Shown here one piece after another: positions 1,608 to 35,166 of a stretch of DNA of 64,000 bases. Position numbers and translations under genes: made by a program. The notes beneath the pieces were generated by a model. It was not told the origin of the DNA and did no database searches. It saw only the letters and a program-made list of their open reading frames with translations. This stretch comes from Sulfurimonas sp. (lineage in GTDB: Bacteria; Campylobacterota; Campylobacteria; Campylobacterales; Sulfurimonadaceae), in assembly GCA_028044295.1 (NCBI GenBank), contig JAOFSE010000010.1, forward strand, positions 1-64,000, in the 5' to 3' direction. Position 1 is the first letter of the stretch. Each line of letters opens with the position of its first letter.

Positions 1608-3077
1608 ATGAAATCAAAATTAGATGTGTTTAGTAAAGTGACTAGAAATGTTAAATATGTAATACTAGGTGCTATAGCTCCTTTAGTTTTTACAGGTTGT
1701 ATATCAAATATGACTGCAGCAATAGGTATCGATAGTACAAATGCTAAGGCTCAAGATGAAAAGTTTATAGCTGGTGCATATGGTGAAGCTGCTGCTTTAG
1801 CATGTGAAGATAAAGATAAAGAAGCAAAGCTTGATGAGGCCAACTTACTACCAACTCTTTACGCGGGAAATAGTTTATTATTTGACCATAACTATACCGG
1901 AAGTCTTGCACTTTTAAATGAATCAGAAGAAATTATAAAATTTCATCACGAAGAAGCAATAGCTGGAAATATAGCAGACTATATCGCAAAACTTGCTATT
2001 AATGATGCTGCAATTGACTATCATGCGACAATTAATGAATCTATCATGGTAAATACGTATAAAGCTATTGACTATATGGCATTAGGAAAGTTTGGTTCAG
2101 CTCGTATTGAATTAAATCGTGCAATAGATCGTCAAAGACGTGCAAAAAATACTTATGCTAAGTTAATTGGTCAACAAAAAAAAGCGATAAATAAAAAGAA
2201 AAAAGAAAAAGAAGTAAAAGGAAAAGATGGTAAGAAAAATACTGGATTTTCTAAAACACTTAGTAATGCAAAAATTAAAGATGCTCTAAAGAAAAATTAT
2301 TCAAATCTAGATCAGTTTAAAGCTTACCCTGACTTTGTAAATCCATTTACAACTTACCTAGCAGGTTTATACTTTGCAATTCAAGGTGACTATTCTAAGT
2401 CATCATCATTACTGAAACAAACATATGGAATGACAAAAAACAAAACTGTAAAATCTGATTTTAAAATGGTTGAAAAAGCATTATCAGGCAGAAAAGTTAG
2501 AGATAAATATGTTTGGGTTATCTATGAAAATGGACTAGGACCAATAAAGTCTCAATTTAAAATTAATATCCCTATGTACTTATTTCCAAGTGCTAATATT
2601 CCATATGTTGGTATAGCATTACCAAAATTAGAAACAAGAAACCAAGCAACACCTTATCTTAGTGTTTTTTCTCAGAATAAAGAGCTTGCAAAAACATCTA
2701 TTGTTGGTGAGATGGATAGAGTTGTAAAAACTGAATTTAAATATTCATATAATGACGTGCTAACACGTGCTGTACTTTCTGCAATCATTAAAGCATATGC
2801 GCAACATGAACTTAGTAAACATGCAGGAATTATGGGTAAAATCGGTGGTGGTATCACAACTTTCTTAACAACACAAGCAGATACAAGAAACTGGATGAAC
2901 ATGCCAAAAGACTTTCAAGTAGCAAGAGTTAAAATGCCTAAGAGTAAAAAACTTACACTTAAAGCTGGAACTCAAAACTTAGATGTAGAAATAGGTAAAA
3001 AAGCTAAACATGCTATCGTACATGTAAGAATACCAACAGCTGTTTCTAAACCAAGTGTTTCAGTAATAAACTTTTAA
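1608..3077 (+). CDS. COG3014-family lipoprotein
   Basis: Lipobox VFTGC; 489 aa; TPR-like 'YKAIDYMALGKFGSARIELNRAIDRQ'; followed by YcfL- and LpoB-like genes as usual for this family. Confidence 0.65.
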   Translation: MKSKLDVFSKVTRNVKYVILGAIAPLVFTGCISNMTAAIGIDSTNAKAQDEKFIAGAYGEAAALACEDKDKEAKLDEANLLPTLYAGNSLLFDHNYTGSLALLNESEEIIKFHHEEAIAGNIADYIAKLAINDAAIDYHATINESIMVNTYKAIDYMALGKFGSARIELNRAIDRQRRAKNTYAKLIGQQKKAINKKKKEKEVKGKDGKKNTGFSKTLSNAKIKDALKKNYSNLDQFKAYPDFVNPFTTYLAGLYFAIQGDYSKSSSLLKQTYGMTKNKTVKSDFKMVEKALSGRKVRDKYVWVIYENGLGPIKSQFKINIPMYLFPSANIPYVGIALPKLETRNQATPYLSVFSQNKELAKTSIVGEMDRVVKTEFKYSYNDVLTRAVLSAIIKAYAQHELSKHAGIMGKIGGGITTFLTTQADTRNWMNMPKDFQVARVKMPKSKKLTLKAGTQNLDVEIGKKAKHAIVHVRIPTAVSKPSVSVINF

Positions 3078-3086
3078 GGGCAGTAG

Positions 3087-3494
3087 ATGAAATTAGTATG
3101 GATTAGTATTTTAACTCTAATTGCATTTTCAGGGTGTAACAAATCACCTGAACCAGAAAATGCAATAGTTAAAGTAGTTAATGAATGTGGTAATAGTGAT
3201 ATATCTATTACTGACATCAAGGGACGTAAAAAATCTGATGGTTTTATGCAGGCACAAGTTATTGGTGAAAATAGTTCTGGAAAGTATCAAACTTTAGAAT
3301 ATCGTATTGCATGGTTTGATAAATCAGGGTTTAAGATTGATAGTATTCTTTCTAACTGGAGAACTTCACCTGCTTATGAAAATCAACCGTTTCACTTAAA
3401 TGAGACATCACCAAGTACAAAAGCGAGAACATTTCGTTTATATATTAGAAAAGATAAGGACATAATATGCAACAGACATTACATTGGGCAATAA
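3087..3494 (+). CDS. YcfL/DUF1425-family lipoprotein
   Basis: Lipobox AFSGC; 'YRIAWFDKSGFKIDSILSNWRTSPAYENQPFHLNETSPSTKARTFRLYIR' is typical of YcfL; upstream of lpoB-like gene. Confidence 0.7.
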   Translation: MKLVWISILTLIAFSGCNKSPEPENAIVKVVNECGNSDISITDIKGRKKSDGFMQAQVIGENSSGKYQTLEYRIAWFDKSGFKIDSILSNWRTSPAYENQPFHLNETSPSTKARTFRLYIRKDKDIICNRHYIGQ

Positions 3495-4084
3495 TAATAG
3501 GAATCACAGCTACTTTATTTAGTGGTTGTGCAACAAAGACTACTAACATTGATTTAAACAATGATAGAGGTGAAGCAGTAATGGGTCTTGATTATCGTGA
3601 TTTTCAAGGTGCAGCTCAGGATATGATAGGCTCTTTAGTGTCTTCTGGTGCTGTAAGTAAACCCGGTGGTGGTCGTTATGTACTTGTAGTATCGAGAATT
3701 ATAAACGACACTATGCAACATATTGACACTGATCAGTTAGTTAAGAAAATGCGTGTTGGACTACTGCGTAGTGGTAAAGTTGTTGTTACAACTGCAGTTG
3801 GTGCTGGTGGTGCAGAAGATAAAATGGCTATGCAAGTGAGAAAAGATCTTCGTAATCATGGAGAGTTTAACCAAAAAACTGTTGCTGGTAAAGGTAATAT
3901 GATTGCACCTGATCTTAGTCTTTCAGGGAAAATTCTTCAGCGTAACATCCGTGTAGATAGTTCAACTCAACGTGTTGAATACTATTTCCAAATGTCTTTA
4001 ACAGATATAAATACTGGTCTTGCTTTTTGGGAAGATGAACGTGTGATTGGTAAGCGTGGTAGCAACAAGTCTGTTGCGTGGTAG
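3467..4084 (+). CDS. penicillin-binding-protein activator LpoB-like lipoprotein
   Basis: Lipobox LFSGC; 'VVSRIINDTMQHIDTDQLVKKMRVGLLRSGKVVVTT...LSGKILQRN...YYFQMSLTDINTGLAFWEDERVIGKRGS'. Confidence 0.75.
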   Translation: MQQTLHWAIIIGITATLFSGCATKTTNIDLNNDRGEAVMGLDYRDFQGAAQDMIGSLVSSGAVSKPGGGRYVLVVSRIINDTMQHIDTDQLVKKMRVGLLRSGKVVVTTAVGAGGAEDKMAMQVRKDLRNHGEFNQKTVAGKGNMIAPDLSLSGKILQRNIRVDSSTQRVEYYFQMSLTDINTGLAFWEDERVIGKRGSNKSVAW

Positions 4085-4159: not shown

Positions 4160-5797
4160 ATGTTATCAAACTTAAAAAAAGTCATATCTGTTGGAGTAGT
4201 AACTTCTACTTTACTAACTACTAGTCTATTCGCTGATTATCATGCAATGATAAATAATCAACAACAAGGACCATTCTCTGAAGCAAAGCTTCAGCAAATG
4301 GCAGCTAATGGTTCTGTGACTTCAGATACACTAGTTTGGCAAGCAGGTATGGCTGGATGGGAAGCAGCTGGAACTCAACAAGGTTTACAAAACTTATTTG
4401 CAGCAGCTACACCTCCACCACCTCCTGGAATTGGTATGCCACCACCAGCACCATCTATTCCAACTCCTCCATCAGTTGCAGGTCAAGATGCTCCAGTAGC
4501 ACAAGCGGATGTTAATGAGCAAAACGAGATGTCTGATCCTAAAACAGTTCCAACACCATCTGCTTCAGATAGTGTAGAAGATTGGTCAGAAGATGTTTTA
4601 GCAAAATTTGGACTTTCAAGTTTTGGTGAGCATAATGGTAAATTTGTTTTATTTGCTCAACAGTCAGTTTCATTAAAGCCAACAGATCCACAATATGGTG
4701 ATTCTGTAATTAATGCATTTGATAAAGCAATGATGAATCTTCAAGAAAAATATATTATGGTTCGTTTTGGTCAATCAACTGTAGAAAAAGTAAGATCTAT
4801 GTATAGCGATAGATCTACTAATGCTAAGCAGATAGAACTACCAGAAATAAAACCAGGTTTCCTTGGGAAAGCCCTTGCAATGTTAGATAAGGGTATGCAG
4901 TTTGCAGAAGCAAAACTTGATCAAGAATTAATTGGTATGGGTGTTTCTCCAGAAGATATTCATGCAGCTACTCCTAAGGAAAAGAAAGATTTATTTAGAG
5001 ATAAATTTGTTAAAAACAATATCAGAAAAGCTTCTGGTAGCGTAGCTGGACTTGTACCAGTTCAAACAACAATTATTAGAGATAGCTCAGGTAATACAGT
5101 TATAGGTTTAGTTGCAGTAGCATCACCTAAAACGCTACAGATTGCTAAAGATATTACACTTCAAAGAGAATCTATTATAAGAGGAAATGGAAAAGATATA
5201 TCTTCTTTATTACCTAGTTCTAATAAAGAGTATTTAGGAACAATGGGAGTAAGATTAGTATACGACCTTGATGGTTCACCAGCTATCATGTCTTATGGTA
5301 TGGGTTCATATGTACCTGATTCTGGAGACGACTACATCAACGATGAGCTTAAAGTAGAAGCAAAAAATGCTGCTATAGCAAATGCTGATGCACAAATTGC
5401 TGAGATGATTAATGGTAGAATGAATGCTAAGAATGAGCGTAAAAATGGTGAAGAGACTAGAAAATATGTTGAACGTGAAATGAAACCTGATTCAGATACG
5501 ATAGAAAAAACTATCAAAAACATTATTAAGACTACAAGCAAAAACTCTAAGAGTTCTGCAAGTGCAAAGCTTCAAGGTATTTCTACTGCAAAAACTTGGA
5601 GATATACTTCTAAAAGTGGTTTAAAAATGGTTGGAGCTGTTCGTGTGTGGAAGTACAGTACTCTTAAGTCAATAAATAGTTTCAACAAACCTAAACCTAA
5701 GCGTAAAGCAAAAAATAGTAACACTGTTCAAAAGAAACAGAACTATAATCACTTTCAACAAGCAAGTTCTTCAGTAAATACAATGGATGATTTCTAA
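4160..5797 (+). CDS. secreted protein with N-terminal GYF_2 domain, Pro-rich linker and large uncharacterised C-terminal region
   Basis: Signal peptide ...LLTTSLFA; GYF_2-like 'DYHAMINNQQQGPFSEAKLQQMAANGSVTSDTLVWQAGMAGWEAA'; then TPPPPPGIGMPPPAP. Confidence 0.65.
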   Translation: MLSNLKKVISVGVVTSTLLTTSLFADYHAMINNQQQGPFSEAKLQQMAANGSVTSDTLVWQAGMAGWEAAGTQQGLQNLFAAATPPPPPGIGMPPPAPSIPTPPSVAGQDAPVAQADVNEQNEMSDPKTVPTPSASDSVEDWSEDVLAKFGLSSFGEHNGKFVLFAQQSVSLKPTDPQYGDSVINAFDKAMMNLQEKYIMVRFGQSTVEKVRSMYSDRSTNAKQIELPEIKPGFLGKALAMLDKGMQFAEAKLDQELIGMGVSPEDIHAATPKEKKDLFRDKFVKNNIRKASGSVAGLVPVQTTIIRDSSGNTVIGLVAVASPKTLQIAKDITLQRESIIRGNGKDISSLLPSSNKEYLGTMGVRLVYDLDGSPAIMSYGMGSYVPDSGDDYINDELKVEAKNAAIANADAQIAEMINGRMNAKNERKNGEETRKYVEREMKPDSDTIEKTIKNIIKTTSKNSKSSASAKLQGISTAKTWRYTSKSGLKMVGAVRVWKYSTLKSINSFNKPKPKRKAKNSNTVQKKQNYNHFQQASSSVNTMDDF

Positions 5798-5802
5798 TCA
5801 TT

Positions 5803-7575
5803 ATGCGTAAATTACTATTAATTTGTATCTTTTGTTTACCAGCTTTTTTAACTGCTGGTGAACAGGTAACAGTAGTAGAAGTAAATGGTTTTGGTATATC
5901 AAGAGATGAGGCTGTGCAAAATGCTTTAGTTGAAGCATTAAAACAAGCCAAAGGTGTATCTATTGACTCAAAGAAGATGTTCTCAAAAAATATAAGACAA
6001 AATAGTGTTTCTCAAAACGGTGAAAGCTCTAAAAATCTTGATATTGCTTCTATGAGTCAAAAAAGAGTTAAAGAAGCAACAAAAGGTATTATTAACGAAT
6101 ATCGTATTTTAGATACTAGAAAAATCAGTGCTTCTGAATACGAAGTAGATTTAGCGGTTAAAATACTTAAGTATAAAAGTCCTGGAGCTTCAAATAAAAA
6201 CAGACGTAAAATTGCTGTAATGCCATTTGTTATCAAGACAAATAGTTCTACTCCAAGCTCAAATATATTTAAAGCTAACTCTGCAAGTTTGGATAAAGAT
6301 ATATTATTACTAGATACTAGTGGATCACTTAATCATGCGAACACAGTGTCAGAAATCAAGAGAATTACTAAAGGTTATTTAAAAGATGGAAAATCTATCA
6401 TTGGTTTTAATGATAATGCATACCCAGTAAATAGACTTCGTGATCTTAAATTTGGCGGTGGAACATCTACTTCAAAGGCTCTTAAAGCAGCTGTCGATGG
6501 AGATTACAAATATGTAGTACTGATAACTGATGGACAAGCAAACGATAGTAGAAAAACTGAATTACAAGCGAGACATTTAAAAAACAATGGTGCAAAACTT
6601 TGTTCTGTATTTATATCTAACTCTGGTAAAAGTATTCCATCATCATTAAACAAGATGTCAGATCAAGTTTTCTTGAGTAGTAATGTATCTTCTGCATTTA
6701 ATATGTGTAGTGGTAAAGTAAGAGAGAAGCTACTTGGAATAAGTGCAGCTAAACCTTCTAATAATATCTCAAGTATGATTACACAAGCTTTAACTACAAA
6801 CATAACTCAATCAAGAAAATTTGCTGTAGTTGATAGAACATACATGAGAGAAATGGCATTTGAAATGAACTTGATAAACTCTAATCAAGTTCCCCTATCT
6901 GAGAAAGTTAAACTTGGACAAAAGTTAGGTGCTGACTACCTTTTAGTAGGAACAATAAGAAAAGCAGATATCCATAATGAGGTTACACATAACCAATCAT
7001 TAGGTACAAGTAGTTCTAAAAATATAGCTGAGTTTATTGTTGACTATAGAATCATTGTCGTGGGTTCATCACAAATAAAGTGGTCTGATACTCTAAAAGC
7101 AACTATAGATATGTCCAATAACAATGGTACATCTGCAATGGTTATGCAAGATGCAGTTGAAAAAGTATCTGCAAATATTACGAACTCTTTATTAGGTAAT
7201 ATATATCCAATTCGTATTGCCCAAATTACAAAAGATGGACATATAGTACTTAACCAGGGTGGAAACACTGTAAAAGAGGGTACACGCCTAGATGTTATGC
7301 GCTTAGGTAAAAAGATTATTGATCCATATACTAAAGAGTCTTTAGGACGTACAGAGAGTAAAACTGCAGAGATAGAGATAACTCGTGTTACTGCAAAGCT
7401 ATCATATGCTAAAGTTGTGGATGGAACTGTATCAATGCTTAAGAAAAATGATGTATGTCGTAGAAAGTCTACAGATACATTTGCTAATAACAGTGTTGAA
7501 GTAGATAATCCGAACTGGAAAAAGACAAATATTAAAGTTGATGATGGTGGTGGGGTAAGGCTACCATTTGACTAA
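5803..7575 (+). CDS. CsgG/FlgT-like secreted protein with inserted von Willebrand A-like domain
   Basis: Signal peptide; FlgT-N-like 'VEVNGFGISRDEAVQNALVEALKQAKGVSI'; CsgG-type 'RRKIAVMPFVI' and 'ITQALTTNITQSRKFAVVDRTYMREMAFEMNLI...KLGQKLGADYLLVGTI'; in between a vWA-like stretch 'DILLLDTSGSL...GGGTSTSKALKAAV...YVVLITDGQAND'. Confidence 0.75.
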   Translation: MRKLLLICIFCLPAFLTAGEQVTVVEVNGFGISRDEAVQNALVEALKQAKGVSIDSKKMFSKNIRQNSVSQNGESSKNLDIASMSQKRVKEATKGIINEYRILDTRKISASEYEVDLAVKILKYKSPGASNKNRRKIAVMPFVIKTNSSTPSSNIFKANSASLDKDILLLDTSGSLNHANTVSEIKRITKGYLKDGKSIIGFNDNAYPVNRLRDLKFGGGTSTSKALKAAVDGDYKYVVLITDGQANDSRKTELQARHLKNNGAKLCSVFISNSGKSIPSSLNKMSDQVFLSSNVSSAFNMCSGKVREKLLGISAAKPSNNISSMITQALTTNITQSRKFAVVDRTYMREMAFEMNLINSNQVPLSEKVKLGQKLGADYLLVGTIRKADIHNEVTHNQSLGTSSSKNIAEFIVDYRIIVVGSSQIKWSDTLKATIDMSNNNGTSAMVMQDAVEKVSANITNSLLGNIYPIRIAQITKDGHIVLNQGGNTVKEGTRLDVMRLGKKIIDPYTKESLGRTESKTAEIEITRVTAKLSYAKVVDGTVSMLKKNDVCRRKSTDTFANNSVEVDNPNWKKTNIKVDDGGGVRLPFD

Positions 7576-7712: not shown

Positions 7713-8733
7713 TTGAATAAAAAAATAATCTTATTATCAGCGAGTATATTTATTTCATTAAGTATATCTGGTTGTGCTCAAAAAGTTCGCATAAAAGCTT
7801 TGAACCCTGCTGAAGTTGGTGAGATGGCTTCTAAGAAAAAAGTTGCTATCACATCTTTTAAAAGAGACACTGTAGGACTATCTGGAAAGATAGAGTCTAA
7901 AATAGCAAAGCATAAGCTAGATAATAAAAAATATTTTACAGTTCTTAGTAGAAAAAATCTAAGTAAAGTTATGAAAGAGCAAAGACTACAATCTTCTGAA
8001 TTAATGGATGAGAGAACTACTTCAAGAGTAGGAAAACTCATCGGTGCACAAGCAATTATAAATGGTGAGGTTTCCTCAGCTGGTGCTGTAACATCTTCAT
8101 ACCGTGAAAAAAAGAAAAAAATGTTTAAAGTATGTTAAGGATGAGGGATGTGTGAAGTATCAACATTACACTGTGAAGTGTAACACTATTAAAGCTAATG
8201 TATCCGCAAACATCAATATAGTAAATATTGAGACAGGTTCTCTTATATATGGAGATAGTATCTCCAAAGAGTACAATGGTGACTCTTGCCATGGTAATAA
8301 GTTTCTTTCAAAGTCACAAGCCCTTAATAGATTGTCGTCTGATATAGCTCATAACTTTGTTTACAAGTTAACTCCTAATTATTCATATTTTAGTGTAACA
8401 CTTTTAGGCTCTATTGAACTATCAACTGCTTCGAGTGAAGATAAAAAAAGACTCTCAGGTGCATTAGAGTACATCAAAGCAGGTAGAATGGACAAGGCTG
8501 AAAAAATCTTGACTACGGTAATGGACTCAGTTGATGGACAGAGTTATGTAGTAGCATATGATTTGGGTGTAGTTAAAGAAGCTCAGGGTCAACTAGATGA
8601 GGCTAAAAAGTTTTATGCAATGGCAGATGACTTAACTATGTCTCCAGTAGAAGAAATAAATGCTGCAGTTTTAAGAATAGACAAATCTATAGAAAAAAAC
8701 CAAGAGGCGAGGGAACAACTAAATGCTAAGTAG
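7713..8733 (+). CDS. CsgG-like lipoprotein with C-terminal TPR-like region; reading frame broken by one extra A (ORFs 7713..8138 and 8104..8733)
   Basis: Lipobox SISGC; 'KKVAITSFKRD...FTVLSRKNLSKVMKEQRLQSSELMDERTTSRVGKLIGAQAIINGEVSS'; deleting one A in 8107-8121 gives ...SYREKRKKCLKYVKDEGC... continuing to 8733 (340 codons). Confidence 0.65.
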
Positions 8734-9712
8734 AACAGTCTTAATTACACTAGTTATTTTTATATTTAGTGGGTGTGTTAGTGAACCATCACCAGTTGAG
8801 CAAAAAGCTCCAAGGCCTGCATGGGTAGATCAACCAGTACAGTCTGATGATGTATATATGTATGGTATCGCTATTGGGGAGAATAGAGAAGATGCAGTTA
8901 AGTTAGCTTTGTCTGATATGGTTTCAAAACTTGGAACTAGCATAGAGTCAAAGTTCCAAAGTAGTGAAGAATCTCAGGGTGGTTACTATAAGGCTACACA
9001 TAAGAACAGTATCAAAGCTGATGTTGCAAAGATAAAGATAAATAACTACGAAGTCCTAAAATCACATCGAATAAGCTACAGAGAGTTTGCTGTTATAGTT
9101 CAAACACAAAGAGATAAGTTTATAATAGGACTTAGTAATTCACTCAAAAAAAAGGCGAGTAGTCTAGAAAAAGAGCTTAAGCAGCTAAATACAAAAAGTA
9201 CTATAGCGAGATATAACCTGAGTAAAAAACTTTATGAAAAGTCTAAGTCACTATACTCTGATGTGATTATAATATCTGAGGTAGATCGAAGGTTTAATAA
9301 AACTAAATTTATCAATTTCATAGACAGTATTAGGGATAGGTTCTATAAAGAGAAAAATTCTTTAAACTTTATAGTACGTGGCGATAGAAACTCTCAAAAG
9401 TTTGTTAAAAATATAGAAGAGTTTTTAGCAAACAAAGGCTTTAATGTGTCTAGTAGAGTTTCAAGTTCAACCATTAACGTTAAGCTGAAAACTAGTGCAA
9501 ATATAGATAGTGATGATTCGATAGCTGTCTTTAATATTGATATAAATGTAAAAAGTAGTATAGATAAGATAGGTGGAAATAGTATAGTTTTAAAAGAACG
9601 TTATAAAGGTTCTAAAAATAGTGTTTTTAAAAATGCTTCTATACATTTTGAACAAGATCTAAAAGAGCAAGGAATAAACGAAGTTCTAGGTATTAGCTTA
9701 GATTTGGAGTAA
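8723..9712 (+). CDS. LPP20-like lipoprotein
   Basis: Lipobox IFSGC; 'PRPAWVDQPVQSDDVYMYGIAIGENREDAVKLALSDMVSKLGTSI'. Confidence 0.65.
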   Translation: MLSRTVLITLVIFIFSGCVSEPSPVEQKAPRPAWVDQPVQSDDVYMYGIAIGENREDAVKLALSDMVSKLGTSIESKFQSSEESQGGYYKATHKNSIKADVAKIKINNYEVLKSHRISYREFAVIVQTQRDKFIIGLSNSLKKKASSLEKELKQLNTKSTIARYNLSKKLYEKSKSLYSDVIIISEVDRRFNKTKFINFIDSIRDRFYKEKNSLNFIVRGDRNSQKFVKNIEEFLANKGFNVSSRVSSSTINVKLKTSANIDSDDSIAVFNIDINVKSSIDKIGGNSIVLKERYKGSKNSVFKNASIHFEQDLKEQGINEVLGISLDLE

Positions 9713-9773: not shown

Positions 9774-10721
9774 ATGATTAATAAACTAGTAGAGATTAAA
9801 AAAGAAGTAAGTAAGGTAGTTGTTGGTCAAGAGAAAATGATAGATTCTCTTTTAATCGCATTTTTATGTGATGGACATATTCTTATAGAGGGTGTTCCAG
9901 GTCTTGCAAAGACTACAACTGTAAATGCACTTGCACAGAGTTTAGGACTTGATTTTAAACGTGCACAGTTTACTCCAGATTTACTTCCTTCAGACATTTT
10001 AGGTGCTGAGATTTATGATCCTCAAAACAATGGTTTTAAAATCAAAAAAGGTCCCATCTTTACAAATCTTCTTTTAGCAGATGAGATTAACCGTGCTCCA
10101 GCAAAAGTACAATCAGCTCTTCTAGAAGTTATGCAAGAGAAGCAAGTTACTCTTGGCGATGCAACTTTTAAGATAGACCTTCCATTCTTTGTAATGGCTA
10201 CTCAAAATCCAGTTGAGCAAGAGGGTGTTTACCAACTTCCAGAAGCTCAGCTTGACCGTTTTATACTAAAACTTGTAGTTGACTACAACACTAAAGAAGA
10301 AGAACTTGAAATAGCAAGACGTATTTCAAAAGGTAACCTTGAATCTATTCAAGCTGTAGTAAATGAAGCTGATATAAACACTCTAAAAGAAGCTATCAAA
10401 AATGTACATGTAGATGCTGAGGTTGAAGAGTATATGATAGAGCTTGTAAATGCTACAAGAAATCCATCTGAGTATGGACTAGACGACATAAAAGACTACA
10501 TCCAGTTTGGTGCTTCTCCTCGTGTAAGTATAGATATGTTCAAAGCTGTTAAAGCAATGGCATATATGAGAGAAAAAGACTTTGTAACTCCTGTTGATGT
10601 GGCCTACATAGCAAAAGAGCTTATGCGTCACCGTATCGTTCTAACATACGAAGCAGAAGCTGAAGGTATCACTACTGATGAGATTATTCAAAAAGTTTTA
10701 GAGACTGTAGCTATCCCATAG
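9774..10721 (+). CDS. MoxR-family AAA+ ATPase
   Basis: 'VVVGQEKMIDSLLIAFLCDGHILIEGVPGLAKTTTVNALA', 'LLADEINRAPAKVQSALLEVMQE', 'FVMATQNPVEQEGVYQLPEAQLDRF'. Confidence 0.95.
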   Translation: MINKLVEIKKEVSKVVVGQEKMIDSLLIAFLCDGHILIEGVPGLAKTTTVNALAQSLGLDFKRAQFTPDLLPSDILGAEIYDPQNNGFKIKKGPIFTNLLLADEINRAPAKVQSALLEVMQEKQVTLGDATFKIDLPFFVMATQNPVEQEGVYQLPEAQLDRFILKLVVDYNTKEEELEIARRISKGNLESIQAVVNEADINTLKEAIKNVHVDAEVEEYMIELVNATRNPSEYGLDDIKDYIQFGASPRVSIDMFKAVKAMAYMREKDFVTPVDVAYIAKELMRHRIVLTYEAEAEGITTDEIIQKVLETVAIP

Positions 10722-10773
10722 CTACTGGTTGCTAACAACACGCTTACACACTTATCACTCTCAACCCTTTTTG

Positions 10774-10802
10774 ATAATTATATCTTATAGGTATATAATT
10801 AT
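10774..10802. repeat. 10-bp perfect inverted repeat, 9-nt spacer, in the intergenic region upstream of the Sel1 gene
   Basis: ataattatat-cttataggt-atataattat. Confidence 0.5.
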
Positions 10803-10856
10803 TATTTTTATATATTTATTAAGTATTTAAGCATATAATATGTCAAAAGGAATCAC

Positions 10857-12731
10857 ATGAAAAAACTAATCTTGATATTTACAATGATATTTAATATGAG
10901 CCTATTTGCTCTGTCTGATAGCTATATGGCTGATCAAATGTGTAACAACGGTAAGATGGATGGCTGTGCAATGCTTGGCTATATGTACTTAAAGGGTGAA
11001 GAAGTTGATCAAGATAAAGAAAAAGCTGTAGCTTTACTCACTAAAGCTTGTGATGGTGGTAGTAAAAAAGGATGTAAATTCCTTGGAATTATGCATGAAA
11101 ATGGCAATGTCGTAAAAGTAGATAAAACTAAAGCATTTGAATTATATACAAAGTCATGTAAAAAAGGTGATTCTGACAGCTGTAACCGTTTGGGGAAAAT
11201 GTATACTAAGGGTGAGGTTGTTCTTCAAGACATCGACAAGGCAGAGTCTCTTTTTTCAAAATCTTGTAAGGGTGAAAATGTAGAAGCTTGTTATAACCTA
11301 GGTGTGATTTACGGAAAAACAAATAGGGCAGAAGAAGCTAAAAGCCTTTTTGTAAAAGCTTGTGCAGCTGGAAATATGAGTAGCTGTAACTATCTTGGTG
11401 TACTTCATTATAATGTGAAAAAATCAAAAAAAGATGCACTGAAAGCAAAAGAGTTTTTCACAAAGGCATGTGATGGCGATAATACTGACGCTTGTTATAA
11501 TTTAGGTGTTATCAATGACTCGAAAGCATCTACAAAAAAAGCTGCTTTACCACTTTTTGAAAAAGCATGTGAAGGTGGGAATATGGAGAGTTGTCATATT
11601 CTTGGTTTAAGATATAACACTGATACTTCATCAAGAGACGATAAGAAAAAAGCAAAAAAACTTTTTGACAAATCATGTGAAAGTGGAAATATGGATAGTT
11701 GCCATAACCTAGGGCTACTTTATAACGAATCACCTAGTGGTAGAGCTGACAAGCTAAAGGCAAATCAACTTTTTTCTAAGTCTTGTTCTAGCGGAAATAT
11801 GGAAAGTTGTAACTACTTAGGTGTTATGTATGATAAAGGTGATGGCGTTAAAAAAGACAAGGTCAGAGCTAAAGAGCTTTATAGAGAAGCTTGTAAAGAT
11901 GGGAATATGGACAGCTGTCATAACCTTGGTATTTTATACTTGGATGGTGTAGACATAAGACAAGACAAAGATCATGCAGTTGATCTGTTTTTACAATCAT
12001 GTGAGAATGGTAAAAAAGAGAGTTGTTACCTGATAGCATCTATGTATGCAAATGGTACTGATGTTGACAAAGATAAAGAAAAAGCTAAAGAACTCTACGG
12101 AATGGCTTGTGATAATGGAAGTTCTCGTGCTTGTAAAGAGTATAAGAGACTTAACAACATAACACCAGAAGAAGAAAAAGTTGTAAAAAAATCTAACGTA
12201 AATATTAGAGATATAGATGTTTTTAAGAAGTCATGTGAAAATGGAAATATGAGTAGCTGTAATTATGTAGCACATATGTATCTTAATGGTGACAGAGTTA
12301 GACAAGACAGAGAACTTGCAAAAGAGCTATATGGTAAGTCATGTGATAACGGTAGTGTCGAAGGCTGTAAAAACTACAAAATGTTAAATCAACCAGAAAA
12401 TAGAATCATTCAAACAAACAAACAAAATCTTAGTTCATCATTATCAGAAGAGTGTGACAATGGTAACCTAGACCAATGTCATAAACTTGCAATTATGTAC
12501 AGAGATGGTAATAGAGTTAGACAAAACAAACAAAAGTCTAGAGAACTTTTTGAATCTACATGTAACGCTGGAAATATGGAAAGTTGTAACTACCTTGGTA
12601 ACATGTACAAAAGTGGTGACGGTGTTAGACAAGACAGAAGAAAAGCAAAAGACTTTTTTGGAAAAGCATGTGACAACGGAAGTGACAAAGGTTGTACAAA
12701 CTATAAAGTTATGAACGAGAAGGGTATTTAA
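10857..12731 (+). CDS. secreted Sel1-repeat, cysteine-rich (Hcp-like) protein
   Basis: Signal peptide; many ~36-aa units such as 'AKELYREACKDGNMDSCHNLGILYLDGVDIRQDKDHA' with paired cysteines. Confidence 0.9.
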   Translation: MKKLILIFTMIFNMSLFALSDSYMADQMCNNGKMDGCAMLGYMYLKGEEVDQDKEKAVALLTKACDGGSKKGCKFLGIMHENGNVVKVDKTKAFELYTKSCKKGDSDSCNRLGKMYTKGEVVLQDIDKAESLFSKSCKGENVEACYNLGVIYGKTNRAEEAKSLFVKACAAGNMSSCNYLGVLHYNVKKSKKDALKAKEFFTKACDGDNTDACYNLGVINDSKASTKKAALPLFEKACEGGNMESCHILGLRYNTDTSSRDDKKKAKKLFDKSCESGNMDSCHNLGLLYNESPSGRADKLKANQLFSKSCSSGNMESCNYLGVMYDKGDGVKKDKVRAKELYREACKDGNMDSCHNLGILYLDGVDIRQDKDHAVDLFLQSCENGKKESCYLIASMYANGTDVDKDKEKAKELYGMACDNGSSRACKEYKRLNNITPEEEKVVKKSNVNIRDIDVFKKSCENGNMSSCNYVAHMYLNGDRVRQDRELAKELYGKSCDNGSVEGCKNYKMLNQPENRIIQTNKQNLSSSLSEECDNGNLDQCHKLAIMYRDGNRVRQNKQKSRELFESTCNAGNMESCNYLGNMYKSGDGVRQDRRKAKDFFGKACDNGSDKGCTNYKVMNEKGI

Positions 12732-12908
12732 TACTCTTTCTCTGTTACATCTAAAAAGCTAGTATCCCAAACTTTAATACTGCCGTCCATACTAAACTTA
12801 TGAACCATTGACATATCTTCTATATTAAGCAGGCATTACTCTAGCACTACAACTCGCTAAAAAAACTAATACTGCAATAAGTAAACTAACATTTATTAAA
12901 TTTTTCAT
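12728..12908 (-). pseudogene. internally deleted remnant of a fourth large propeller-type lipoprotein: signal peptide/lipobox followed by last ~35 codons in another frame
   Basis: Minus strand from 12908: MKNLINVSLLIAVLVFLASCSARVMPA*; then, ending at the stop at 12728-12730, CLLNIEDMSMVHKFSMDGSIKVWDTSFLDVTEKEY*. Compare paralogue C N-terminus MKKFLHVSFIIAVLLTIVGC and paralogue A C-terminus SADGSVKVWELGIVDFIDKEY. Confidence 0.8.
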
Positions 12909-12921
12909 TTCTTTCCTTTTT

Positions 12922-15546
12922 TTATTGAGATACATACTCTTTATCGATAAAGTCTACGATACCTAGTTCCCATACTTTTACACTACCATCAGCACTTTGA
13001 GTTACTGCTATGTCCTCTCCTGCAACCATTCTACCTATTACACCGTTGTGTTCATTGAAATCTTTAATTAACTTCATATCTTTTAATCTAAATAAGAAGG
13101 CTTTACTCTCATCTGTATTTACTACAACATAATTATCTTTTACAAACTCTATATTAGATACATTTCCTAGTGAATCAATAGTAGCTTGAATTTCCTTATC
13201 TTTTATATTGTACAAATGAAGTTTTGAAAATCCGATAAATGCATATTCTGATAAAAGGCAATACCCAAGTGCATAATCACAAGTACCCTGGTTCATAACA
13301 ATTCCATCGATTTTAATTTCATCGATTTTTTCAGTTGTATCTTTATCAAAAAAGTGAAGTGTTGTATATTTACTCTGTGCTGTATTAGCTGCTCTTTTAA
13401 ATATATTAGTTTCATCTGTATTTTCTAAAACACCAACAACTTTTTCATCATTACTCCAGAGTGTGTGAATCTCCCTTCCATTTTCGGCATCAATCACTAA
13501 TTTATTTGTACCATCATTTTTTCTAAGGTAACATTGGTTTGGAGCATCATCTGGTGAATACAAAAATGACTTACCATCATCTAAAGCGTATACTATTGCA
13601 TGAGGATGAGGCTTACCTACAGTAATTTCTTCTTCATTTATATCAACACCATTAGCATTAATAACTGTTCCATCTTTTGTGTTAATAAAAAATGTTTTTT
13701 CATCGTTAAATATATTTCCTTTTGTTACTATGATACTATATTCATCATCCAGTTTTGATGTGTGAATCATAGGTCTAGATAAAAATCTAGTTAAAAAGTT
13801 AAAATCTCTAAATTTCACTTTATTTACAAGGACACCATTATAATCATACATTAGAAGTTCATCATGGTCTGTTACTGCTAGAACTTTTTTGTTTTTAGAA
13901 CTCACATACAAGTATCGTACTTCATTATTAATATTTTCTATTGTAGTAATATCCTCATAAGTTTTCGAATCCTTTAGAATTATGTCATTACCATCTAACC
14001 AGTATATAACTGACTTGTCTTTAGATATACCTAAAGAATATAAAATGTTTCGAGTTGCGACACCTGCTGTCCAAGACCATGTTTTAGGTGAGTGTGATAT
14101 TCCATTTATGTGGTCTGTATATAAAATTTTTAAACCACTTTCTTTCATACTAGATCCATAAGTTCCATAAAGTTTTGTCTCTGGTATAGGCTCATCCACA
14201 TTATCAATTGTTAATGCTAAATTATAATTAAAGTCTTTTGGTAAATTTAAAACACCCCAAAAACCAGCATAATCCATAACGGTGTACGTAAACTCCGTAA
14301 ATAACTCTGAACTATCAAGTTGAAGGTTTAGAGCTTTTGAAGCTATTTTTGATTGTATCTCCGCATTATAATTAGCTTTTCCTCTAAAGTGAAATCCCTT
14401 ACCAGTTTTTTCAATTGAGCCAATACTTATGCCTAATGTATTTAAAGTGTTATTGTATATATTTAACTGGGTCATTAAAAGTGTATCTGGTAAACTATTT
14501 TTTAAAGACAAATTAATTTCTTTGGCTTGACTAGGTGTTAGTTTATCAAATATATAGGCTTTAGATATATAAGAGTTTTTATATAGAACATTTATTGTTT
14601 CTTGATTTATAGGCTCTGTATAAAGAATTTGTTTTGTTTCGTATTCTCTCCACTGTTTAGATGATCTAACAGATTTTATCTGCTGATCAATCTCTAAAAG
14701 TTTACGAGAGTCTTGTGTCTTGTCTTTTTCTTTAATTAGTTTTTCTATCTCAACCTGTATATTATACTTATATACTTTTCCAGTAGCAGACCCATCATTG
14801 TTATCAGTTATAACTCTAAACTCTTCATCTTCTTTTAACATTTTCTTTCTATCTATAGCTATATATTCTGGAATCTCTATCTGTAATGCACTAATAATGG
14901 CATGGATAATGTCTTCGTTATTTTTTCCATTACTATTTTGCTTTGACAAGTTATAATAAGCGGAATTTCTATCTTTCAAAGATGACTTAACTGTTTTAAA
15001 ACCTTCTAATGTATATATATTACTTTTTAAATCTTCAGGGTTTATCCATATAGCTAATGTTTGACTGGCTTTATCATTACCGCTATTGTCTAATTTACGT
15101 AGCATTGTAGATAGATAAGATTTATTTTTTAATCTACTCTCATATATAGAAGTAAACTCAGCATCTTCCTTAGATGCTAACTTAAAGGGTATATGTTTAA
15201 TTTTTGAATATTTACTTGATATATTTAGTCCACTAAGCTTATCTAAAATAGTTGGATCTTTTGCCATCTTGCTTAAGAATGATGACATCTTTTTAAAAGC
15301 TATAGAACTTTTTTCAATCGGATTTCTATATACAGGACCTATTATAGTTAGTTCTAATTTCTCAGTTTTGTTAAACCACTTTGAATGAGTTTCAGAAATC
15401 TTTTGTGAGTTAGTGAATGCGTCCTCTATTTCTTGTGAATTTGCCAGTTTAGTTATTCTACCTTGGGAATAATCTGCTTCTTGTGGTTTTGCGCCACAGG
15501 CAGCAAACAGAAGTATCATTAAACTATATATTATTATTTTATACAT
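12922..15546 (-). CDS. large lipoprotein, paralogue A: conserved N-terminal module plus propeller/WD40-like C-terminus
   Basis: Lipobox LFAAC; 'WFNKTEKLELTIIGPVYRNPIEK...LAIWINPEDLKSNIYTLEGFKTVK...IPEYIAIDRKKMLKEDEEFRVITDN...WREYETKQILYT'; C-terminus 'SADGSVKVWELGIVDFIDKEY'. Confidence 0.8.
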   Translation of the reverse strand: MYKIIIYSLMILLFAACGAKPQEADYSQGRITKLANSQEIEDAFTNSQKISETHSKWFNKTEKLELTIIGPVYRNPIEKSSIAFKKMSSFLSKMAKDPTILDKLSGLNISSKYSKIKHIPFKLASKEDAEFTSIYESRLKNKSYLSTMLRKLDNSGNDKASQTLAIWINPEDLKSNIYTLEGFKTVKSSLKDRNSAYYNLSKQNSNGKNNEDIIHAIISALQIEIPEYIAIDRKKMLKEDEEFRVITDNNDGSATGKVYKYNIQVEIEKLIKEKDKTQDSRKLLEIDQQIKSVRSSKQWREYETKQILYTEPINQETINVLYKNSYISKAYIFDKLTPSQAKEINLSLKNSLPDTLLMTQLNIYNNTLNTLGISIGSIEKTGKGFHFRGKANYNAEIQSKIASKALNLQLDSSELFTEFTYTVMDYAGFWGVLNLPKDFNYNLALTIDNVDEPIPETKLYGTYGSSMKESGLKILYTDHINGISHSPKTWSWTAGVATRNILYSLGISKDKSVIYWLDGNDIILKDSKTYEDITTIENINNEVRYLYVSSKNKKVLAVTDHDELLMYDYNGVLVNKVKFRDFNFLTRFLSRPMIHTSKLDDEYSIIVTKGNIFNDEKTFFINTKDGTVINANGVDINEEEITVGKPHPHAIVYALDDGKSFLYSPDDAPNQCYLRKNDGTNKLVIDAENGREIHTLWSNDEKVVGVLENTDETNIFKRAANTAQSKYTTLHFFDKDTTEKIDEIKIDGIVMNQGTCDYALGYCLLSEYAFIGFSKLHLYNIKDKEIQATIDSLGNVSNIEFVKDNYVVVNTDESKAFLFRLKDMKLIKDFNEHNGVIGRMVAGEDIAVTQSADGSVKVWELGIVDFIDKEYVSQ

Positions 15547-15585
15547 GTAAACACCTTTTAATAAAAAATTATTATATTAAAAACT

Positions 15586-15619
15586 ATTATAATATATGAT
15601 TAAGATGATATATTATAAT
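15586..15619. promoter_or_regulatory. 12-bp perfect dyad in the divergent promoter region between paralogue A and the ABC-permease operon
   Basis: attataatatat-gattaagatg-atatattataat; each arm contains TATAAT on both strands; flanking genes are divergent (15546 minus / 15662 plus). Confidence 0.55.
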
Positions 15620-15661
15620 TAGTGTATAATATTTTCCAATAAACTGTAGGGAGCTTTATAA

Positions 15662-16774: not shown

Positions 16775-16776
16775 CT

Positions 16777-19426: not shown

Positions 19427-19445
19427 ATCAAAAAAGGAATGGGTA

Positions 19446-23206: not shown

Positions 23207-23274
23207 TCATAATCCTATTAAAATATTTATTTGTTATAATAACACATTAAATTTTAAATTGTTAGGAATTAACT

Positions 23275-26501: not shown

Positions 26502-26520
26502 AATATACTAAGGAATATCA

Positions 26521-29010: not shown

Positions 29011-29040
29011 AACTATATATTTCAAAAAAGGAAAGTAGAA

Positions 29041-29697: not shown

Positions 29698-29735
29698 TGA
29701 CCATTCATTAACCACTAATTGTTATACTTTTGCCA

Positions 29736-30566
29736 ATGAGTAAATTACAAAAAATATTAGTTCGTGCGAGACGTCAAGTCTTTAGCGAAATGGTCGGTAA
29801 CAATCCTTCTATCTTTCAAGGTGAAGGTTATGATTTTATAGAACTTCGTGAATATATGGCTGGTGATGATATCCGTCATATTGACTGGAATATCACAGCT
29901 AAAATGCAAAAACCATTTATCAAAATCTTTCGTGAAGAGAGAGAGTTAAATGTAGTTGTTGTTTCTGTACTAAACGGAAGTGTTCACTTTGGTTCTAAAA
30001 AATTCAAACAAGAAACCATTGCAGAAGTATCCGCACTACTTTCGTTCTCAACTCTTAAAAATGGTGACTTGCTTTCATCTTACATATTTACAGATGAGAT
30101 GGTTTCAAATTCAAAACCAAGCAAAAAGCTACATCAAATTCAAAAGAATGTAGATGATATCTTAGAGTTTGACGCAATAAATAAAAAAGTAGATTTTAAA
30201 GTAATCGCCGATACACTTTTTAAAAGACTAAAAAGAAAATCCCTAATCATAGTTATTGGGGATTATTTTGAGATACCAGACTTTAAACTACTTGCTAAAA
30301 AACATGAGGTCGTTTCTGTAATAGTTAGAGATAAGTTAGAAGAAAACCCTCCTCAAATGGGATTTGCATCTTTAGTTGACCCTGAGAGTGGGGCAGTTCT
30401 AGAAGGTGACTTTAACGCTTCTAGTGTAAAGAGTTATGCAAAGAAGGTTCATGACCATGATCATAAACTGTATGAAACTCTTCGTCGTGACCAGATTAGA
30501 TTTACAAAAGTATATACAGATGATTTTCCTAGTGTAAATCTTCGTAGACTTTTTGAGGGTAGATAG
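29736..30566 (+). CDS. DUF58-domain protein
   Basis: 'GNNPSIFQGEGYDFIELREYMAGDDIRHIDWNITAKMQKPFIKIFREERELNVVVV'; ATG at 29736 preferred over TTG 29730. Confidence 0.9.
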   Translation: MSKLQKILVRARRQVFSEMVGNNPSIFQGEGYDFIELREYMAGDDIRHIDWNITAKMQKPFIKIFREERELNVVVVSVLNGSVHFGSKKFKQETIAEVSALLSFSTLKNGDLLSSYIFTDEMVSNSKPSKKLHQIQKNVDDILEFDAINKKVDFKVIADTLFKRLKRKSLIIVIGDYFEIPDFKLLAKKHEVVSVIVRDKLEENPPQMGFASLVDPESGAVLEGDFNASSVKSYAKKVHDHDHKLYETLRRDQIRFTKVYTDDFPSVNLRRLFEGR

Positions 30567-30980
30567 ATGAAGGCACAACAAACTCAAAGTTATACAATTC
30601 CACTACATGATATAAAGCCTTTAGTAGATGTTGAAGACTATTCGCTTTACTATTTTTTAGCTACTTCTGCATTTGTATTACTTCTTACATGTAGTCTGAT
30701 TTATCTAGCATATAAATGGTACAAAAAGAGAAAAACTTTTAACATAAGACGTTTACATGTAGAACTCATAAACGAGCTCGACTTGTCTGATACAAAAGCT
30801 ACTGCTTATGCTATTACTAGCTATGGACTTACATTTAAAAACGATAGCGATAGACATCAAGAGATGTATGAAAACATTACATCAAGACTAGAAGAGTACA
30901 AGTATAAAAAGGCGGTTGAAAGTTTTGATGAGGAAGTGCTTGGCTACATAGAAGTATATAAGGGGATGATTGATGTTTGA
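30567..30980 (+). CDS. small membrane protein between DUF58 and BatA genes (DUF4381-like)
   Basis: 'IPLHDIKPLVDVEDYSLYYFLATSAFVLLLTCSLIYLAYKWYKKR'; position in bat operon. Confidence 0.6.
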   Translation: MKAQQTQSYTIPLHDIKPLVDVEDYSLYYFLATSAFVLLLTCSLIYLAYKWYKKRKTFNIRRLHVELINELDLSDTKATAYAITSYGLTFKNDSDRHQEMYENITSRLEEYKYKKAVESFDEEVLGYIEVYKGMIDV

Positions 30981-31902
30981 CGGACTTTATTTTGAGTTCC
31001 CTTACTTTGGTTTAATCCTAATACTTTTTATAGTTTGTTCTTTAGTTTGTAAGATGAGACTTCCATCTATATACTTTCCACATACTGGTAGTTTTATTCA
31101 AAATACGGTGTCAGCTTCCAAATTTCTGTTTCTTTTAAAATGGATTGGTATTGTTATGCTCATAGTAGCATTGATGTCTCCTGTAAAAGATGAAACATAT
31201 GAGTTAGAACCTAAAGATGGTTATGAGATAGCTCTTATCCTAGATACATCAGAATCTATGAAAGCACAAGGTTTTGACGCTAATAATCCATCTTTAAACA
31301 GGTTTGATGTGGTAAAGAGAATAGTTGGTGACTTTATTCAGCAGAGAAAAAATGACAACATAGGTCTTGTAGTATTTGGTCAGTACTCTTTTATAGCATC
31401 TCCACTAACTTACGATGAGAATATTCTCAAAAAAATTGTATCGCAGTTCTATATAGGTATGGCTGGAAAGTATACAGCACTCAACACTTCACTAGCTCAA
31501 GGTGTTAACCTACTTAAAATGAGTCAGTCAGGTTCAAAGGTGGCAATACTTCTTACAGACGGTTACTCCACTCCTGCTATAGATAAAATTCCACTAGATA
31601 TTGCAATAGAGATGGCTAAAAAAGAGGGTATAAAAGTTTACCCCATAGGCATAGGTAGTGCCAATGAATACAATAAAAACACACTACTAAAAATAGCAGA
31701 TGGTACTGGAGGAATGGCTTTTGGAGCTTCGAGTTCAGCAGAGTTAAAAGAGGTTTATAAAAAGATAGATGAGTTGGAAAAATCAGAGATTAAAACTGAG
31801 AGTTTTACAAACATAAACTACTATTTCTCTTTTCCTTTATTTATATCATTTTTATCGTTGATGTTATATGTATATTTTAGAAACAAAAGGGGTGGGGCAT
31901 GA
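30973..31902 (+). CDS. batA: BatA-like vWA-domain membrane protein
   Basis: TM plus vWA 'IALILDTSESMKAQGFD...GKYTALNTSLAQGVNLL...VAILLTDGYSTPA'; start ATG 30973. Confidence 0.85.
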   Translation: MFDGLYFEFPYFGLILILFIVCSLVCKMRLPSIYFPHTGSFIQNTVSASKFLFLLKWIGIVMLIVALMSPVKDETYELEPKDGYEIALILDTSESMKAQGFDANNPSLNRFDVVKRIVGDFIQQRKNDNIGLVVFGQYSFIASPLTYDENILKKIVSQFYIGMAGKYTALNTSLAQGVNLLKMSQSGSKVAILLTDGYSTPAIDKIPLDIAIEMAKKEGIKVYPIGIGSANEYNKNTLLKIADGTGGMAFGASSSAELKEVYKKIDELEKSEIKTESFTNINYYFSFPLFISFLSLMLYVYFRNKRGGA

Positions 31903-33729
31903 GTTTTTTACATCCTGAATTTTTATACTATATGATAGTCCCGATGCTCATACTTTTCACTCTTTTACTGACTCAAAAAGAGCCAACGAAACATTTTTTC
32001 AATGAAGAGGTTATGAAAAAGCTGATGGTAAGTTCTGGAAGCCTGAGTTTACGGTTTAGAAATACTCTTTTCTTAATCATAGGTTTGCTTATGATAGTTG
32101 CACTAGCAGAACCAGTCATAAAAGATGGAGTCGTCAAGATAAAAGCTAAGAGTGCTGACATTATGATAGCACTTGATATATCTGACTCAATGCTTGCAGA
32201 AGATGTATACCCAAACCGTCTAGAACTAGCAAAACAAAAAGCGCTTACCCTTTTAGATGAATCTCCAAATGAGAGAATAGGGGTAGTGGCATTCGCAAAG
32301 AATTCGTACCTTGTTTCTCCTCTTAGTTTTGACAGTAGTGCTGTTGCTTTTTTACTTAAACAGTTAGATACTTCATCTATAACAGAGAAGGGAACTGACT
32401 TTTTGTCTGTCTTAAATGTTGTGAGTAAAGCACAAGCTAAGAAAGAAAAAAAGTATCTTCTTATCCTCAGTGATGGTGGAGATAAGAATGATTTTTCTGC
32501 TGAGATAGAAATGGCTAAAGATGAAGGTATAAAAGTGTTTATACTTGGAGTAGGTACTAAAAAAGGAGCACCTATAAAACTTAGTGATGGAAGTTTCATA
32601 AAGCATAAAGGTGACATTATAGTTTCAAAACTAAATAAAGCAATAGTAGATCTAGCAACAAAAACTGGTGGTGTATATATACAAAGTACTACATCTAGTG
32701 AAGATATAAAAACAATGTTTAGAGAGATTACAAGACTGAGTGATGAAAAAGAGTTAAAGAGTGAAGAGATTCCTAGATATACTCAGCTTTTTTACTACCC
32801 TTTAGGTTTCGCACTTTTTTTACTACTTTTTGCCCTTAGTTCATTTAGAAAAAAATCTTCACATACTTTAGCTATTACACTTTTGTTAGTGAGTTTTTCA
32901 GAGTTACATGTAGAAGCATCAATGTTGGACTTTTTGGACTTGAGTAAGGCAAAAGAAGCTTATGAGAATGGTAACTATGAAGAATCTGCAAACCTTTATA
33001 AAAGCTATGCAAACGATACTTCAAGTGCTGAGGCAAATTATAATACTGGTAATTCATACTATAAACAAGAAAAATATGATGAGGCACTAGAAGCTTACAC
33101 TAAGGCAAATTTCTCCTCAGCTGAGCATAGAGCTCGGAACTTCTCTAACATAGGTAACACGCATGTTAAAAATGCCAAAGAAGATAGTCTTCAAAAGGCA
33201 GTAGAAGCTTATGAAGAATCTTTAAAGTTAAAAGAGGACAAAGAGACTAGAGAGAATTTAGAAGAAGTGAAAAAGCTTATAGAAAAGCAAAAGGAAGATT
33301 CTAAAGACGATAAGGATCAAGATAAAAATAAAAAAGATGATAAAGAGAATCAGGATAGTAAAGATAACAAGGATTCTCAAGACAAAAAGCAGTCTGAAAA
33401 GTCAGAGGATGAGAAAAAAGATTCTGATAATAAAAAAGAAAATCAAGACCAAGACAATAGTTCAAAAAAGTAAAGAAGATAAATCTACAGAAGAAAAAGA
33501 GAAAAAACCTGAACAAAAACAAGATAAACTTGATAAGTTAGAGAACAAAGAAGAGAAAAACAAAGAAGAAGAAACTTCATCACAAGCTAAAGAACTTAAC
33601 CAAGATAAAATGAGTGAAGCAGAAGAAAAGAAGTGGATAGATAAGCTAAACTCAAAAAGTAATACTTACATGTATAAACTCAATGATACAAAACAAGAAG
33701 CTTTTAATGAAGATGAAAAACCTTGGTAG
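31899..33729 (+). CDS. batB: BatB-like vWA plus TPR protein with Lys/Asp-rich linker; one-A frameshift (ORFs 31899..33473 and 33337..33729)
   Basis: 'DIMIALDISDSMLAEDVYPNRLELAKQKAL', TPR region, charged linker; deleting one A at 33464-33469 joins to ...SKEDKSTEEKEK...MSEAEEKKWIDKLNSKSNTYMYKLNDTKQEAFNEDEKPW (610 codons including stop). Confidence 0.85.
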
Positions 33730-33746
33730 AGAAGAAAAGGATAAAA

Positions 33747-35166
33747 ATGAATAAATACTTTACATCACTAATATTATTACTAACAATTACAATGACTACT
33801 CATGCAGATGTAAGAGCCGAACTTGATTCAAATAGCGTAGAGTTAGGTGACATGGTTACTTACTCTTTAAGTGTTTCTGGTGAAAATATAACAAGACCAA
33901 CTATTCAAAGAATATGTGATAGTGATGTTATATCTACTGCTTCTCAAACTAGTATGCAGGTTATAAACGGAGCGATAAGTAAAAGCTACATCTTAAGCTA
34001 TAAATTTTTACCACAAAAAAGTTGTAAGATTGATCCTGTTGAGGTAGATATAAATGGAGTAAAAGAGTTCTCAAATGCGCTTGACTTAAAGGTAAATCCA
34101 GTCTCTGCAGCTAAAGACAAAGATTTTATTCTAGAACTTAGTAGTTCTAAAAAAAGTGTTTATGTTGGTGAACCATTTGAAGTGACTCTGAGATTCAAAC
34201 AAAAGCAAAATTCTCAAGCAGTAGATAGTAAGTTTACTCCGCCTGAGTTAAAAGGTTTTTGGGTTAAAAAATGAATCTAAACCAATCAGAGAAGAAGATG
34301 GCGAATATGCTGTGACAAAGCTAACTTACACACTAGCAGGACAAAGGTCTGCAAAGCTATATGTAAACAAAGCTCAGATGAGAATAGCCTCAAGAAGTAA
34401 CTCAAGAGCAAACTGGAGCTCCTTTATGCCTGCAGTGAAGTGGAAAACATATTTTTCAAATGAGTTAGAAATAGATGTCAAAGAGTTGCCTTCAGGTGTA
34501 GAGCTCATTGGTGATTTTAAATTATCTGCAACTACAGATAAAAAAGAGATAAATGCGAATGAGGTTGTAAATGTTACCTTAGAGATAATAGGTGAAGGTA
34601 ACTTAGAAGATATAAAAAGTTTTAAACCTTATGTTGATGATGTTAGTGTATTTGATGAAAAAATTGAGATACTTGGTAATACACTCACACAAAAGATAGC
34701 TTTTGTCGCTGAAAGAGATTTTACAATACCAAGTTTTACCCTTAAATATTTTGATTTAAAGAGTGAAAAGGTCAAGACTCTTTCAACTAAAGAAATTGTA
34801 GTAAAAGTAAATAACGCCAAACTAAAAGAGAAAATAGAAATACAAAGAGCTGAGGAATCAGTAGAACAAACCCCAGTGAGTGTTACTAAAGAATTCGATA
34901 AATTAACACTAATTATTACTTTTATATCGGGCCTATTGTTAGGTATATTGATTATGTTATTTAAATCGTATAAGTTTAAAAAGAAAGATAAGAAACTCTC
35001 TATAAAAGACCCGAAAAATCTTCTTTTAAAGCTTGTAAATCATTCAGATGACGAAGATGTGAAGATGATTGTTGATAAGTTAGAGAAAAGTATATATGCT
35101 AATGAAAAACTAGAGATTGATAAAAAGATTTTAAAAGAGGTATTGAAGAGATACGATATTAGTTAG
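33747..35166 (+). CDS. batD: BatD-like protein; one-A frameshift (ORFs 33723..34274 and 34312..35166)
   Basis: 'VRAELDSNSVELGDMVTYSLSVSG...SAAKDKDFILELSSSKKSVYVGEPFEVTLRFKQ'; deleting one A at 34266-34271 gives GFWVKNESKPIREEDGEYAVTKLTYTLAGQRSAKL (473 codons including stop). Confidence 0.8.

Follow-up and report, generated by a model that had tools for sequence, protein, structure and literature searches.

A vWA domain nested in a periplasmic FlgT-like protein of the CsgG superfamily in Sulfurimonas

The window analysed here, 64,000 nucleotides of DNA from Sulfurimonas sp., encodes at 5803..7575 (plus strand, as are all features below unless stated) a protein of 590 aa with an ATG start and an intact reading frame without internal stop, in which a CsgG-like domain begins, breaks off and resumes far downstream. 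This raises the question of what has been placed inside the domain, what kind of protein carries it and what the combination might do. The initial annotation had seen a vWA domain in the gap and had proposed an adhesion module displayed from a CsgG-type assembly; the first part proved correct, while the data speak against the second.

The strand NRRKIAVMPFVI has its start near residue 133, and the homology to CsgG sets in again near residue 319. In alignments, KIAVMPF (residues 136-142, 6208..6228) is the strand that opens the CsgG/FlgT_M domain; it lies directly before the insert and ~175 residues ahead of the Pfam CsgG match at residues 319-466. The insert, a vWA domain with Ser/Asn-rich linkers, spans residues ~147-318 (~6241..6756) and thus separates strand 1 of the CsgG-like domain from helix 1; the span of 6292-6740 given previously was rightly placed but slightly tight at its limits. 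Searched in isolation, the insert matches PF00092 with E=6.6e-6 and 26.9 bits, above the curated cut-off of 23.8, and it was recovered independently when the whole genome was scanned with PF00092.

All three MIDAS elements are present: DTSGS (D171, S173 and S175; 6313..6327), the threonine T221 in GGGTSTSKAL (6463..6465) and the Asp-Gly pair D243-G244 in LITDGQ (6529..6534). They are in register with true vWA domains: when the insert was aligned without forcing to Bat vWA domains from this and related genomes, only the columns of D171, S173, S175, D243 and G244 were invariant across all rows, and the set is completed by T221, which is fully invariant only in a five-sequence alignment; D171, S173, S175 and D243 match in both alignments. 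The motifs alone were rejected as proof of a vWA domain, as the ordered pattern D.S.S...T...DG arises in ~1% of the sequences made by shuffling these residues (2176/200000); the assignment is therefore based on the profile match together with the fold. An AlphaFold model of the insert alone (pLDDT 83.7) has an alternating beta-alpha, Rossmann-like fold, and its PDB matches are mostly vWA or I domains (best 7n1o, E=2.3e-8; TM-score ~0.6), including those of CMG2, PTMP1, integrin I and TRAP vWA. Insert and full-length protein were modelled separately: the stand-alone model was helped by Bat vWA domains in its alignment, whereas the full-length model had none, and MAFFT misaligned vWA segments that were added to the full-length alignment. 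The full-length model is of moderate quality (pLDDT 67.7, pTM 0.49, mostly 30-70 in the insert region) but repeats the strand-helix order of the insert at lower confidence and surrounds it with a FlgT/CsgG-type host fold. With PF00092 above its cut-off, the vWA fold and the CsgG match resuming at ~319, the presence of a nested vWA domain in a secreted protein of the CsgG superfamily is confirmed. This domain architecture is solid; the function of the protein we infer.

The host is more similar to FlgT than to CsgG. Its N-terminus (residues 1-19, 5803..5859), as read from the translation, resembles a type I signal peptide, and the translation contains no [LVI][ASTVI][GAS]C lipobox, the lipoprotein signal expected of a CsgG channel. 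Residues 20-124 (5860..6174) form an SHS2/LPP20/FlgT_N-like domain, recognised from the model, from Foldseek comparison with FlgT (3w1e) and from weak LPP20 and FlgT_N matches in relatives; the Pfam FlgT_N profile has no match in the window protein itself. In the full-length model, this domain has extra residues (51-92) between the helix and the second strand, and extra residues at that SHS2 position have been tied to ring formation by a recent study (PMC12222027). The resumed part of the middle domain (residues 319-466, 6757..7200) matches CsgG (PF03783, E=2e-10, 40.8 bits, cut-off 20.8), LpoB (E=2e-6) and, below threshold, FlgT_M (E=9e-4, 19.9 bits, cut-off 31.2). The C-terminal domain (residues 467-555, 7201..7467) is FlgT_C/TsaP-like and, in the model, a barrel of beta strands: as a fragment it matches FlgT_C below threshold (E=0.007, 17.2 bits, cut-off 27), and the profile of the family finds C-terminal domains of TsaP type (6ve2, E=2.7e-9). 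When the full-length model was searched with Foldseek, FlgT (3w1e, E=7.7e-17) came first, together with the LPHT ring (8z5n, E ~1e-16), both over the whole length, and CsgG followed among the plausible relatives with E=1e-5. The protein thus has the three-domain FlgT fold, with low TM-scores that are explained by a different orientation of the domains and by the intervening insert.

A metal-dependent adhesin, shown at the cell surface by a CsgG-type outer-membrane assembly, would be in agreement with the genuine CsgG homology, with the frequent binding of vWA domains to matrix ligands, with the borrelial vWA protein BB0172, reported to be surface-exposed and integrin-binding (PMC5700661), and with the influence of the LpoB-like Cj0091 on adherence, although this effect was reported without sidedness (PMC3100323). 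However, the whole-length fold is closer to FlgT than to CsgG and the vWA domain is missing from all relatives. The segment that would hold the second membrane hairpin is ~20 residues too short, so that this CsgG hairpin is absent, and the counterpart of the first hairpin is hydrophilic; the protein thus lacks the pair of transmembrane beta-hairpins that each CsgG channel subunit has. The missing second hairpin and the missing lipobox make a CsgG secretion pore unlikely, and we regard the surface adhesin as very improbable. The FlgT-type terminal domains, a conserved LpoB/DUF6844 gene module and a nearby MoxR/Bat operon all point to the periplasm, and to docking between proteins rather than surface adhesion.

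The module lies directly upstream. It consists of a 187-aa protein (69-632), an LPP20-family protein (592-1506), a lipoprotein (1608-3077), DUF1425/YcfL (3087-3494), an LpoB-like lipoprotein (3467-4084) and a GYF_2-DUF6844 protein (4160..5797; PF20891 E=2e-25, PF14237 E=5e-18), the middle ones assigned by Pfam, synteny or both; we take the lipoprotein at 1608-3077 to be of COG3014 type, from its synteny with HP0018/Cj0089. Relatives have the same order with the FlgT-like gene last, and in nearly all of them the DUF6844 gene is its direct upstream neighbour. The last five genes are kept across the Campylobacterota loci and are also present on plasmid p1 of Azospirillum sp. TSH100, and their presence on a plasmid of an alphaproteobacterium suggests horizontal spread. 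The locus of Campylobacter volucris fits the order cj0089-cj0093, and the FlgT-like gene at the module end is, judging from synteny, presumably Cj0093 of Campylobacter jejuni; in the record that was inspected, the FlgT-fold protein is annotated as hypothetical. Published data on these genes are that cj0089-0091 form an operon and that loss of cj0091 lowers adherence and early chick colonisation (PMC3100323), that in Helicobacter the homologue HP0018 has an effect on the envelope and HP1457 resembles LpoB (PMC11394524), and that Cj0093 is raised in biofilm (PMC11202532). The finding draws attention to a widespread envelope module of five genes (COG3014, YcfL, LpoB-like, DUF6844, FlgT-like).

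This gene context also bears on whether the protein could be a true flagellar FlgT, an H-ring-like part of the motor with a vWA domain that tunes its contacts to stator or ring proteins. The Foldseek match to FlgT extends over the whole length, fliF is present in the genome, and the LPP20-family protein FlgP, which forms the basal disk of Campylobacter jejuni, has the SHS2 fold in common with FlgT (PMC12222027). On the other hand, FlgT_M and FlgT_C score under their Pfam cut-offs, the gene belongs to the LpoB/DUF6844 module rather than to a flagellar cluster at the loci examined, with fliF on another contig, and the protein is missing from most genomes of the genus. We therefore regard a motor component as decidedly unlikely.

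Relatives of the protein are found across Campylobacterota, none of them with more than 57% identity outside its own genome; in the genome-collection scan they were retrieved with an alignment as query, while the single protein as query retrieved none. Among 46 distinct members that were aligned, the window protein has 197 residues between the anchors flanking the insertion site, and each of the remaining 45 has 22-36. No second case with an insert was present among 228 genomes of the family and 399 genomes of the order; the order scan added about a dozen further members, and the full-length ones span ~1.2 kb, which leaves no room for an insert. Most genomes of the same genus, among the 228 family genomes scanned, have no FlgT-like protein of this type. 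In a tree constructed without the insert columns, the window protein groups with two insert-less Sulfurimonas proteins (support 90), and this nesting among insert-less proteins indicates that the vWA domain was gained on one terminal branch. The insertion is, judging from the sequences, a recent gain on a single branch, and the ~60 insert-less relatives fix its site to within a few residues, making it a clean natural case of domain insertion. Location, domain identity and origin are all well supported. The architecture had been called unrecognised, and this was borne out: it is present in none of the relatives sampled within the Campylobacterota, and no paper that we found describes a FlgT/CsgG fold with a vWA domain inside it. 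Among the genomes covered, one has this architecture.

Length variation of other kinds occurs in the family: four proteins of 680-694 aa (L006, L047, L049, L015) have a C-terminal extension, which in L006 is a tandem second CsgG-FlgT_C unit. Two FlgT-like genes look broken by a frame break or internal stops (G085 C6:18940-20123 and G342 C108:361-1422).

Searches for the source of the insert gave no further copy in the genome and only weak matches to other proteins in the rest of the phylum (none with a FlgT-like host). Flanking repeats, which might have betrayed a mobile origin, are short and look like chance occurrences. A recent copy of the Bat vWA domains was also considered and rejected: identity is ~20%, and phmmer searches with the insert do not find any Bat vWA domain of the window. 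The G+C content of the insert equals that of its flanks. That a chimeric contig fused a vWA fragment into the gene could be suspected from the 34-contig assembly, the absence of the insert from any second genome and the frameshift in a homopolymer run of a neighbouring gene; as the reading frame is kept across both junctions, which fall at a loop, the composition shows no break and the genome has no other copy of the insert, we consider such an artefact extremely improbable. A neutral insertion, where a permissive loop tolerates the domain without any function under selection, would fit the occurrence in one genome only, the variable length of the loop among relatives (22-36 aa between anchors) and the ease with which domains with adjacent termini fit into loops. 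However, the frame is open without a stop, the MIDAS set is complete and G+C is that of the flanks, as expected of an established insertion, and we think that neutrality is fairly unlikely.

Downstream, a small CsgG-like and TPR part and a second LPP20-like protein (LPP20b) occupy 7713..9712. The CsgG/TPR gene, intact as a single gene in three related genomes (G031, G030 and G548), is split here into two overlapping frames at the A-run GAAAAAAAGAAAAAAATG (8080-8150), by a frameshift, a sequencing error or slippage. After LPP20b comes moxR (9774..10721; PF07726, E=3e-63), of which the genome yielded no second copy, followed, ~19 kb further on, by DUF58-BatX-BatA (vWA)-BatB (vWA-TPR)-BatD (29730..35166); in related genomes, moxR and DUF58 adjoin and the genes are contiguous. 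The region between them (10722-29729) encodes Sel1 repeats, propeller lipoproteins, ABC/FtsX permeases and FGE-sulfatase-like proteins. The large beta-propeller-like lipoproteins (12922-15546 on the minus strand, 19446-21893 and 26521-29010 on the plus strand) belong to an expanded paralogous family with 10 matches on several contigs of this genome and none in 60 related genomes at E<=1e-10. Since propeller lipoproteins occur here together with MoxR and vWA, MoxR-vWA-beta-propeller 'ternary systems' (PMC7159879) were considered, and were set aside; CsgG is absent from the text of that paper.

Closely related lipoprotein genes are located directly upstream of moxR-DUF58-BatA-BatB in four genomes (G011, G031, G030 and G548), and the finding brings this repeated placement of lipoprotein genes beside MoxR/Bat operons into view. 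None of these four moxR loci has a DUF6844 or FlgT-like gene. CsgG/TPR and LPP20b flank moxR in relatives that lack the vWA-bearing protein, hence its own proximity to moxR may be chance. MoxR is cytoplasmic, so direct contact with a periplasmic vWA domain is impossible. MoxR AAA+ and vWA proteins act as pairs in NorQ/NorD (PMC9976466). The BatA-type vWA domain of BB0173 from Borrelia was shown to face the periplasm (PMC5700661), which makes contact within that compartment possible.

The reading that we consider somewhat more probable than its opposite is that of a periplasmic FlgT-type scaffold at the end of the LpoB/DUF6844 module that has recently received a vWA domain as a metal-dependent docking arm. 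The vWA domain has taken the place of the strand 1-helix 1 loop of the CsgG/FlgT_M domain and hangs from two Ser/Asn-rich linkers. The protein would be soluble and reside in the periplasm at the inner face of the outer membrane, with LpoB, LPP20 and DUF6844 proteins as putative partners, and the scaffold may form rings as FlgT does. From the intact MIDAS we infer metal binding: it would bind a divalent metal and dock an acidic residue of another protein. The likeliest candidates for this partner are periplasmic proteins encoded in the nearby MoxR/Bat system or in the lipoprotein cluster, and the insertion would then join two neighbouring envelope systems. A bolder version, a predicted metal-gated vWA clamp at the position of the CsgG pore loop that links the outer-membrane LpoB/LPP20/FlgT-like scaffold with the inner-membrane MoxR/Bat system, would, if true, amount to a new trans-periplasmic machine, but is unlikely.

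Among known systems, FlgT of the Vibrio alginolyticus H-ring (3W1E) shares the order of the three domains, the fold and periplasmic secretion with the window protein, but has only ~10% identity to it and no vWA domain, and the window gene has a lipoprotein context that is non-flagellar. The curli channel CsgG (4UV2/4UV3) shares the middle domain and differs in being a lipoprotein with both hairpins and in lacking the extra N- and C-terminal domains. The profile alignment between strand 1 and helix 1 is ungapped and places the insertion site at the CsgG segment KPYPASNFST; the vWA domain thus sits where CsgG carries its constriction residues Tyr51, Asn55 and Phe56 (PMC6957492), and this loop of the CsgG/FlgT fold can evidently carry a whole binding domain. 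The Bat operon proteins BatA and BatB, encoded nearby, have a MIDAS-bearing vWA domain too, periplasm-facing in the BatA type, but theirs are membrane-anchored. The closest counterparts are the orthologous FlgT-like proteins at the end of the COG3014-YcfL-LpoB-DUF6844 module: they reach the 57% identity mentioned above in an identical gene order, but have no vWA domain, and some carry the tandem CsgG-FlgT_C extension instead.
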